NCBI GenBank assembly: GCA_947625055.1
Contig: CANQMT010000025.1
Location: 1 to 40,311 of the forward strand
Length of the DNA: 40,311 nt
Reading direction: 5' to 3'
From: an uncultured Monoglobus sp.
Lineage (GTDB): Bacteria > Bacillota > Clostridia > Monoglobales > Monoglobaceae
Below are positions 72 to 25,781 of the stretch, piece by piece. The translations under genes and the position numbers were made by a program. Position 1 is the stretch's first letter. Each line of letters begins with the position of its first letter. Below the pieces are notes generated by a model. It searched no databases. It was not told the DNA's origin and saw nothing but the letters and a program-made list of their open reading frames with translations.

Positions 72-229
72 CAAAAATGCGCCGGCCAAAGCCGACGCAT
101 AAAAACGCAGCCTTGGATGACGCAACTCTTTTTTTACCCAATTACCACCAGTATAAAAAACCAAAGCATACACGTTTTTTCAAAACGGTATACTAATGGT
201 GATTGAGTATTATATAAAAAAGAGTTGCA
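72..229 (-). ncRNA. Candidate structured non-coding RNA, copy A of a two-copy family
   Basis: Read on the minus strand, a promoter (235-263) points at a start near 229, exactly at the first base of a long closed hairpin. Its ends, 216-228 and 122-134, pair over at least 13 bp. Inside are an AT-rich internal loop containing TATAAT, an outer helix (about 187-205 with 139-156), a 6-bp CGTTTT/AAAACG hairpin with a GAA loop, and a 3' side loop with TGTATGCT. A linker (about 101-121) holds ATCCAAG and GCGTTTTT, then comes an intrinsic terminator (stem 77-86/91-100, U-run at 76-72). The linker heptamer at 110-116 is complementary to the terminator loop at 86-92. No ORF is visible. The same order of parts recurs at 24908-25069. 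Function unknown; a 6S-like regulator or an attenuator are options. Confidence 0.6.
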
Positions 230-234
230 ATTCT

Positions 235-263
235 AATATAACATAAATATAAAAATTTGTAAA
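235..263 (-). promoter_or_regulatory. Promoter of structured RNA copy A
   Basis: Minus-strand TTTACA (263-258), 17-bp spacer, TATATT (240-235). The predicted start falls at about 229, the first paired base of the RNA. Confidence 0.6.
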
Positions 264-4450: not shown

Positions 4451-4456
4451 AAATAT

Positions 4457-4594
4457 TTGTTGAAATTATTCCGCAGACAGCAGGGGGCGGCCGCAGAAAT
4501 CAGCGGCATCAGCCGTAAGTCCTGCCGAGGATGATATATTACATTAATTTTATCGCGTAATTATATCCCTCGTATGTTTGCGAGGGATTTTTTA
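4457..4594 (+). promoter_or_regulatory. L10 leader with transcription attenuator
   Basis: The conserved core of the L10-leader family is visible: GCAGACAGCAGG at about 4473-4484 and CCTGCCGAGG at 4521-4530, which pair around variable stems. Downstream, ATCCCTCG (4565-4572) and CGAGGGAT (4581-4588) form a perfect 8-bp stem followed by TTTTTT, a clear intrinsic terminator before rplJ. Known L10 leaders bind the L10(L12)4 complex, so excess L10-L12 should reduce rplJ-rplL expression. Here terminator control is the most likely mode. Confidence 0.9.
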
Positions 4595-4613
4595 CGGAAG
4601 GAGGAATAGATCA

Positions 4614-24871: not shown

Positions 24872-24907
24872 AACAATACCTCCAAAAAATATTTGAAAAA
24901 TCCGCGC

Positions 24908-25069
24908 AAAACAAAAAGGCGCGAAGCCGAGCAACGCGCCCAAAAACGCTATGCTCGGATTTAGTCGCCAAACTATCAATCTATCTATCGCAATGTACGC
25001 CAGATATGAGCATGCATTTTTGTCGAAACAAAAAGCATACATATTGATAGATATTATAATAGTTTGGCA
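24908..25069 (-). ncRNA. Candidate structured non-coding RNA or leader, copy B of the two-copy family
   Basis: From a promoter at 25076-25104 transcription starts near 25069, at the first base of a closed hairpin: GCCAAACTAT (25068-25059) pairs perfectly with ATAGTTTGGC (24976-24967). Further in are ATCTATC/GATAGAT and ATGTATGC/GCGTACAT helices, a TTTTTGT-TTCG-ACAAAAA hairpin, a TATAAT-containing internal loop and a 3' side loop TGCATGCT. The linker has ATCCGAG and GCGTTTTT; the terminator stem is GGCGCG/CGCGCC with TTTTTGTTTT. The linker CCGAGCA (24958-24952) is complementary to TGCTCGG in the terminator loop (24933-24927), so an antiterminator could form. Layout and length match 72-229. Standalone RNA or attenuator of the downstream AbrB-type gene. 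Confidence 0.6.
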
Positions 25070-25075
25070 AGTTTG

Positions 25076-25104
25076 ATTATATCACAGCCGCGGCGTTGTG
25101 TAAA
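25076..25104 (-). promoter_or_regulatory. Promoter of structured RNA copy B
   Basis: Minus strand TTTACA (25104-25099), 17-bp spacer, TATAAT (25081-25076). The same -35 box (TTTACA) and spacer are found at copy A. Confidence 0.7.
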
Positions 25105-25631: not shown

Positions 25632-25781
25632 TAATAAAGTTGCTGTTTGAGGTGGAGGATTACGTCCGGTCCACACGCCGATGGTATGACAAGGGTGAAA
25701 ACCCTGAGAGATGCAGGAGAATGGGACGCCTGCCAAACAGTAATATATAGACCGCTTTGAGAAATCAAAGCGGTTTTTTAC
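25632..25781 (+). ncRNA. Unidentified compact structured RNA with terminator
   Basis: A promoter TTTACA (25596-25601), 17 bp, TAATAT (25619-25624) lies in the end of the PBECR-like gene. A 10-bp closing helix (25640-25649 with 25734-25743, one wobble) encloses three hairpins: GTGGA-GGA / TCC-GG-TCCAC with a TTACG loop (25652-25674); AGGGT-GAAA-ACCCT, a GNRA tetraloop (25692-25705); and GCAGG / CCTGC (25713-25733) whose loop has GGACG, complementary to CGTCC at 25663-25667 in the first hairpin. A strong terminator follows (ACCGCTTTGA-GAAA-TCAAAGCGGT, then TTTTTT). No gene follows within 300 bases in the same direction, so it is probably a free RNA. I could not match it to a known riboswitch. 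Confidence 0.65.

Follow-up and report, generated by a model that had tools for sequence, protein, structure and literature searches.

Attenuating riboswitches, the orphan candidates included, are 5' leaders that serve regulons of many loci, and in them a pseudoknotted domain is followed by a mutually exclusive antiterminator and terminator. T-box leaders and the protein-controlled attenuators, such as BglG-type RAT and ANTAR-type leaders, likewise set an antiterminator against an intrinsic terminator. 6S RNA (RF00013) forms a long hairpin and has its own promoter, and skipping-rope RNA (RF02924) is another structured RNA of Clostridia. The RNA described here was found in a stretch of 40,311 nucleotides from an uncultured Monoglobus sp. 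(contig CANQMT010000025.1), which is called the window in the following.

Two copies of the RNA in the window

An initial annotation of the window had described two minus-strand units with their parts in the same order, copy A (72-229) and copy B (24908-25069), and both are present. It had placed the transcription start on the first base of the long stem, which agrees with our reading, but the position 229 is off by one: the putative start is 228 in copy A and 25068 in copy B (minus strand). The proposed complementarity of seven bases between linker and terminator loop, with compensating differences, was found in both copies. Compared with dinucleotide shuffles, folding had a z score of -8.1 for copy A and -6.5 for copy B, and in either case none of 200 shuffles folded equally well. 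In both copies TG stands before the -10 element, 6 or 7 bases follow, and then comes the G that is base 1 of the stem. The parts are listed below; P1 to P3 are helices of the long hairpin, L is the linker, and H and T are the strands complementary to it in the hairpin and in the terminator, respectively.

258-263, minus strand: copy A, -35 element TTTACA, 17 bp from the -10 element (read in the sequence)
235-240, minus strand: copy A, -10 element TATATT, preceded by the TG extension (read in the sequence)
216-228, minus strand: copy A, 5' strand of P1, beginning at the putative transcription start (from the fold)
161-178, minus strand: copy A, H strand, complementary to the linker (from pairing counts in the family)
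122-134, minus strand: copy A, 3' strand of P1 (from the fold; two-sided changes in the family)
101-121, minus strand: copy A, linker L, GTCATCCAAGGCTGCGTTTTT (from sequence and complementarity)
73-100, minus strand: copy A, terminator hairpin (ATGCGTCGGC TTTG GCCGGCGCAT) and U tract, with the T site in arm and loop
25099-25104, minus strand: copy B, -35 element TTTACA, 17 bp from the -10 element (read in the sequence)
25076-25081, minus strand: copy B, hexamer TATAAT of the extended -10 element TGATATAAT (read in the sequence)
24967-25068, minus strand: copy B, long hairpin P1-P2-P3, beginning at the putative transcription start (G at 25068)
25000-25021, minus strand: copy B, H strand (AAAAATGCATGCTC and flank; from complementarity to the linker)
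24942-24966, minus strand: copy B, linker L, GACTAAATCCGAGCATAGCGTTTTT (from sequence and complementarity)
24913-24941, minus strand: copy B, terminator hairpin and U tract, with the T site TGCTCGG in the loop
24632-24871, minus strand: gene after copy B, AbrB/SpoVT-type regulator of 79 aa with C-terminal Zn-ribbon cysteines

Three features had escaped the initial annotation: the linker also pairs with a strand within the hairpin (TGTATGCT/TGCATGCT), the start codon of the AbrB-type gene follows copy B at a distance of 41 nt (Shine-Dalgarno sequence GGAGGT at 24878-24883), and nine more copies exist elsewhere in the genome. Behind copy A the assembly ends, and the 71 nt left before the contig end hold no gene. 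In two related genomes (G003, G010) the counterpart of copy A lies 18 nt before another AbrB-type gene.

Some other elements of the window are mentioned for completeness. At 38-62, in the stretch that leads from copy A to the end of the contig, there is a strong inverted repeat, AACCCCCGGATAGTCCGGGGGTT, which resembles a bidirectional terminator; a sub-threshold STnc490 match at this place is probably only the inverted-repeat hairpin. A skipping-rope RNA (RF02924, 46.5 bits) lies at 25642-25741 on the plus strand, about 0.6 kb from copy B, and the two RNAs are likewise neighbours in another genome (G010, L035). The ribosomal protein L10 leader (RF00557) at 4453-4602 (plus strand) is an ordinary known element. 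Outside the window, Gut-1 RNAs (RF01706) were seen near members of the new family at two loci (L140, L191).

A widespread RNA family in Clostridia

Clear homologues of both A and B within the same genus were found by blastn among 100 relatives, and on reading these and weaker matches the same anatomy was seen in many genomes. Scanning with a DNA pattern yielded 84 places, almost all of them in metagenome-assembled genomes of gut Clostridia (Oscillospiraceae, Ruminococcaceae, Monoglobus). The search of related genomes that the initial annotation had called for was run with a covariance model built from 17 hand-picked copies, whose structure comprised just P1 and five pairs of the terminator. 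With this model 11 copies were detected in the 2.2-Mb Monoglobus sp. genome (E below 1e-4). Within the same family, 36 of 38 genomes had copies, with up to 38 per genome, and within the same class 79 of 291 genomes had them. When 348 genomes drawn from across the phylum were searched, the sole match was the genome of the window itself, and the other 347 had no copies. This indicates that the model is specific; the family looks confined to its class. One carrier is an isolate, Agathobaculum desmolans ATCC 43058, with a single copy before a lipoprotein gene.

At the gathering threshold no family of Rfam 15 covers A, B or the copies in 38 further loci, and below it nothing credible appeared for A, B or one consensus-like member; tsr26, STnc490 and the other low-scoring matches at A were set aside as chance or simple hairpins. 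No description of the RNA was met in the part of the literature covered by our search. The presence in dozens of genomes, the strong compensatory change described below and the lack of an Rfam match bear out the proposal of a new structured RNA family whose structure is under selection. We regard it as nearly certain that this family is real, apparently undescribed and widespread. About a quarter of the sampled genomes of the class carry a multi-copy RNA that is described in none of the catalogues searched.

A decoy for RNA polymerase like 6S RNA had been among the functions considered, and a length of about 160 nt, the long hairpin and the promoter of its own would suit it. However, a 6S RNA was located on a different contig of the genome (G000:C47:4050-4242, 78.5 bits), so that an identity of the new RNA with 6S was rejected. 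Searches with RF00013 found no match in A and B at E values of up to 10, nor in the 38 further loci at the gathering threshold, and the folds contain no open, promoter-like central bubble; the helices P1, P2 and P3 are continuous. As family membership this explanation is refuted, and we give it practically no weight.

The occurrence of many copies per genome, some of them in tandem, could also point to a mobile or selfish, MITE-like repeat that carries promoter and terminator; the initial annotation had listed a mobile-element RNA among its options. Such a repeat would be found as near-identical copies in random orientation, whereas here the stem sequences differ freely and diverge in a compensatory manner, with pairing kept, and orientation and distance to genes are fixed. 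Moreover, searches of phage, plasmid and viral collections gave no matches to the family. We therefore consider a mobile element very improbable. A different matter is a repeat in one genome labelled Bacteroides sp. (JAMPEQ01, G671), which probably belongs to the Clostridia (loci L236, L237, L238, L240, L249-L254). There at least four copies of the RNA are broken in the terminator loop at an identical sequence (TGAAATTGTCAAGAGAAAGTATAC...); on contig C16 this sequence borders, from the opposite side, on a terminator-like arm, and contigs end inside the element. It seems to be an IS-like element that targets the terminator of the RNA family.

Conserved promoter and covarying stems

The promoter is of the sigma-A type (-35, 17 bp, TGnTATAAT) and is part of the unit. 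A -35 element within two mismatches of TTGACA was found in 140 of 165 copies, with a spacing of 17 bp in 135 of these 140; the TG extension before the -10 element (TGn) is present in 154 of 165, and in 153 of 161 the stem begins 6 nt past the -10 element. P1, of about 12-13 bp, is followed by an A-rich asymmetric loop, P2 and the small hairpin P3 (UUUUUACC/GGUAAAAA type). On the 3' side of P3 there is a conserved unpaired strand, and H is AAAAAUGCAUGCUC and variants of it. Then follow the 3' strand of P1, the linker L, whose last bases are UUUUU, and the intrinsic terminator.

Two copies are not sufficient to prove covariation, but the larger set of sequences is. Among 91 distinct sequences all 12 modelled pairs of P1 showed two-sided compensatory changes and 98.5% of the cells were paired, and the terminator helix was paired in 94.9%. 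In slid controls of the whole structure, pairing dropped to 29-58%.

Upstream of the promoter, TGNCGAA occurs within 100 nt in 22 of 165 copies, where about 5 were expected. In copies linked to AbrB genes (L055, L056 and others) a Spo0A-box-like TGTCGAA has a fixed place 39-51 nt upstream of the -10 element. As the boxes occur mostly at this one position in the AbrB subgroup, control of the whole family by a Spo0A box was rejected; in this subgroup they probably reflect common descent.

The linker has two mutually exclusive partners

L is complementary to H, in L013 for instance over 15 bp (GGAGUUUGCGUUUUU with AAAAAUGCAAAUUCC), and also to the arm and loop of the terminator (T). In the 91 distinct sequences 96.7% of the L:H cells were paired, compared to 33-61% in slid controls, and 41 cells had two-sided changes compared to 10.2 in shuffled data (reached in 0 of 500 shuffles). 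For L:T, 90.2% of the cells were paired and two-sided changes were found in 26 (8.4 when shuffled). A second set of 86 other sequences gave 98.0% for L:H and 92.5% for L:T; stronger conservation of H and L in this set made the excess of covariation smaller. Whenever the partner was slid by 1-3 columns, pairing fell sharply. Since neither L:H nor L:T belongs to the structure given to the model, the alignment is not biased towards them.

Duplex energies point in the same direction, with -17.5 for L:H (-9.8 with shuffled linkers) and -19.5 for L:T (-9.0 with shuffled linkers). The antiterminator segment is more stable than the isolated terminator (-18.2 vs -15.4 kcal/mol). The two pairings exclude each other, and both are kept across about 160 copies. 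Two other readings of the linker were discarded: a U*A-U triple helix, as the changes between G-C, G-U and A-U suit antiparallel Watson-Crick pairing, and an upstream reading frame in L, which is not conserved.

Genes downstream of the RNA

A Shine-Dalgarno sequence and a start codon 12-60 nt past the RNA were found in 96 of 156 copies. The controls gave 6 of 157 when the upstream side was read away from the promoter, 2.9 for shuffled DNA and 10% for positions chosen at random. In 95 downstream proteins, Pfam identified BspA-type leucine-rich repeats (19), AbrB/MazE (13), EcoRI-type methylases (3) and AMP-binding enzymes (3) as well as HTH, CHAP, SLH and other domains; TIGR01439 (AbrB) matched 15 of the 95, and both TIGR01439 and MazE/AbrB matches occur among the AbrB-type proteins. 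Lipoproteins are also among the downstream genes. An N-terminal hydrophobic segment was predicted by a crude heuristic in 40 of 55 downstream proteins of at least 100 aa; in a background set of 200 frames it was predicted in 65 (Fisher p 1.5e-7). In several genomes (L069, L071, L089, L092, L194) a tiny protein of 46-61 aa (M-x-DYKKLYHKMFNKVTDVIEELQ type) recurs after the RNA, possibly DUF6809.

In about 60 of 158 copies the next 60 nt contain no start codon, and some of these copies stand in tandem with their own promoters. Tandem copies with own promoters were seen at L015, L005 and L247; in the last case a few bases separate the terminator of the first copy from the -35 element of the second. 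In the gene-less copies L:H is unchanged and L:T nearly so (-18.8 vs -19.9, p 0.03), so that a loss of the antiterminator, being slight only, was discarded as a distinguishing feature.

A probable transcription attenuator with a pseudoknot switch

Our preferred interpretation, to which we assign a probability of roughly 0.7 on sequence grounds, is that the units are cis-acting transcription attenuators with a pseudoknot switch, a new family in which the attenuator is fused to a strong promoter. Transcription would start at base 1 of P1, so that the 5' end is paired immediately. The hairpin, with P1, the A-rich asymmetric loop, P2 and P3, would display H, which lies partly in P3 and is partly single-stranded. 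When L emerges it could pair with H as a pseudoknot, leaving the terminator free to form (OFF). Alternatively, L could pair with T, and the resulting antiterminator would let RNA polymerase proceed into the gene, which lies 17-40 nt away (ON). A presumed signal, which might be a ligand, a protein or an RNA, would shift the balance between the two. We infer that L:H and L:T are alternative regulatory states, that L:H with termination is the default and that such a signal exists.

Of the three functions suggested initially, an attenuator is best supported, by the placement of the genes and the mutually exclusive pairings. In 96/156 copies (control 6/157) the RNA is a leader directly upstream of a same-strand gene, and a conserved intrinsic terminator (94.9%) faces a competing antiterminator (L:T 90-92%). 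Some observations speak against it: gene-less copies keep L:H and nearly all of L:T, which is unexpected under pure control in cis; copy A has no gene before the end of its contig; the varied downstream genes suggest no obvious ligand; and the terminator of at least four copies in one genome is interrupted by the repeated element.

Another possibility is that the RNA is a constitutive 5' leader, in which a stabilising hairpin and a leaky terminator set a fixed low expression in the absence of any signal. The pairing of the 5' end from base 1 and the lack of a known ligand are consistent with this, but it leaves the complementarity of L to both H and T, and its maintenance by compensating changes, unexplained, and we consider it improbable.

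Somewhat less improbable, though still unlikely, is that the units are primarily small RNAs, terminated after about 165 nt, which act in trans by exchange of L and H or on other mRNAs, the genes being secondary. Every copy has a strong autonomous promoter and a terminator, and tandem and gene-less copies exist. In addition, the computed pairing is only a little weaker when L is combined with the H of other copies (-15.9 vs -17.5 kcal/mol), and the sequence of H is more conserved than pairing alone needs. Yet start codons at a narrow distance from the RNA are far above chance, and complementarity to T can be understood only with respect to the terminator of the RNA itself. As the gene-less and tandem copies keep their pairings and L and H pair across copies, a role in trans is possible, alone or in addition to attenuation.

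Taken as attenuators, the units would control genes that are likely important for life in the gut, namely those of adhesin-like leucine-rich repeat proteins, lipoproteins, AbrB regulators and a few EcoRI-type methylases and AMP-binding enzymes. Tentatively, and with somewhat less than even odds, the RNA could be a new class of signal-sensing switch, possibly with exchange of L and H in trans, that coordinates surface proteins, AbrB regulators and small proteins genome-wide in gut Clostridia. If it senses a signal, a large unexplored regulon would exist in common gut bacteria and the ligand would be a tractable question. A. desmolans is a culturable carrier of the RNA.

Comparison with known systems

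Skipping-rope RNA, although a neighbour of copy B, is a separate family at a separate locus and matches neither A nor B, so that membership was rejected. With 6S RNA the new RNA shares its size, but RF00013 does not match it, the genome has a 6S RNA of its own and genes follow the new RNA at a fixed distance. With T-box leaders and BglG-type RAT and ANTAR-type leaders it has the competition of antiterminator and intrinsic terminator in common; it differs in having no Rfam match and in downstream genes that do not all belong to one pathway. With the attenuating riboswitches it shares the 5' leader, a multi-locus regulon and a pseudoknotted domain ahead of the two exclusive structures; Rfam 15 assigned it to none of the known classes. 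Unlike these, it has no known ligand, little invariant unpaired sequence and highly variable helices, and it contains a promoter at a fixed distance within the unit and occurs in gene-less tandem copies.
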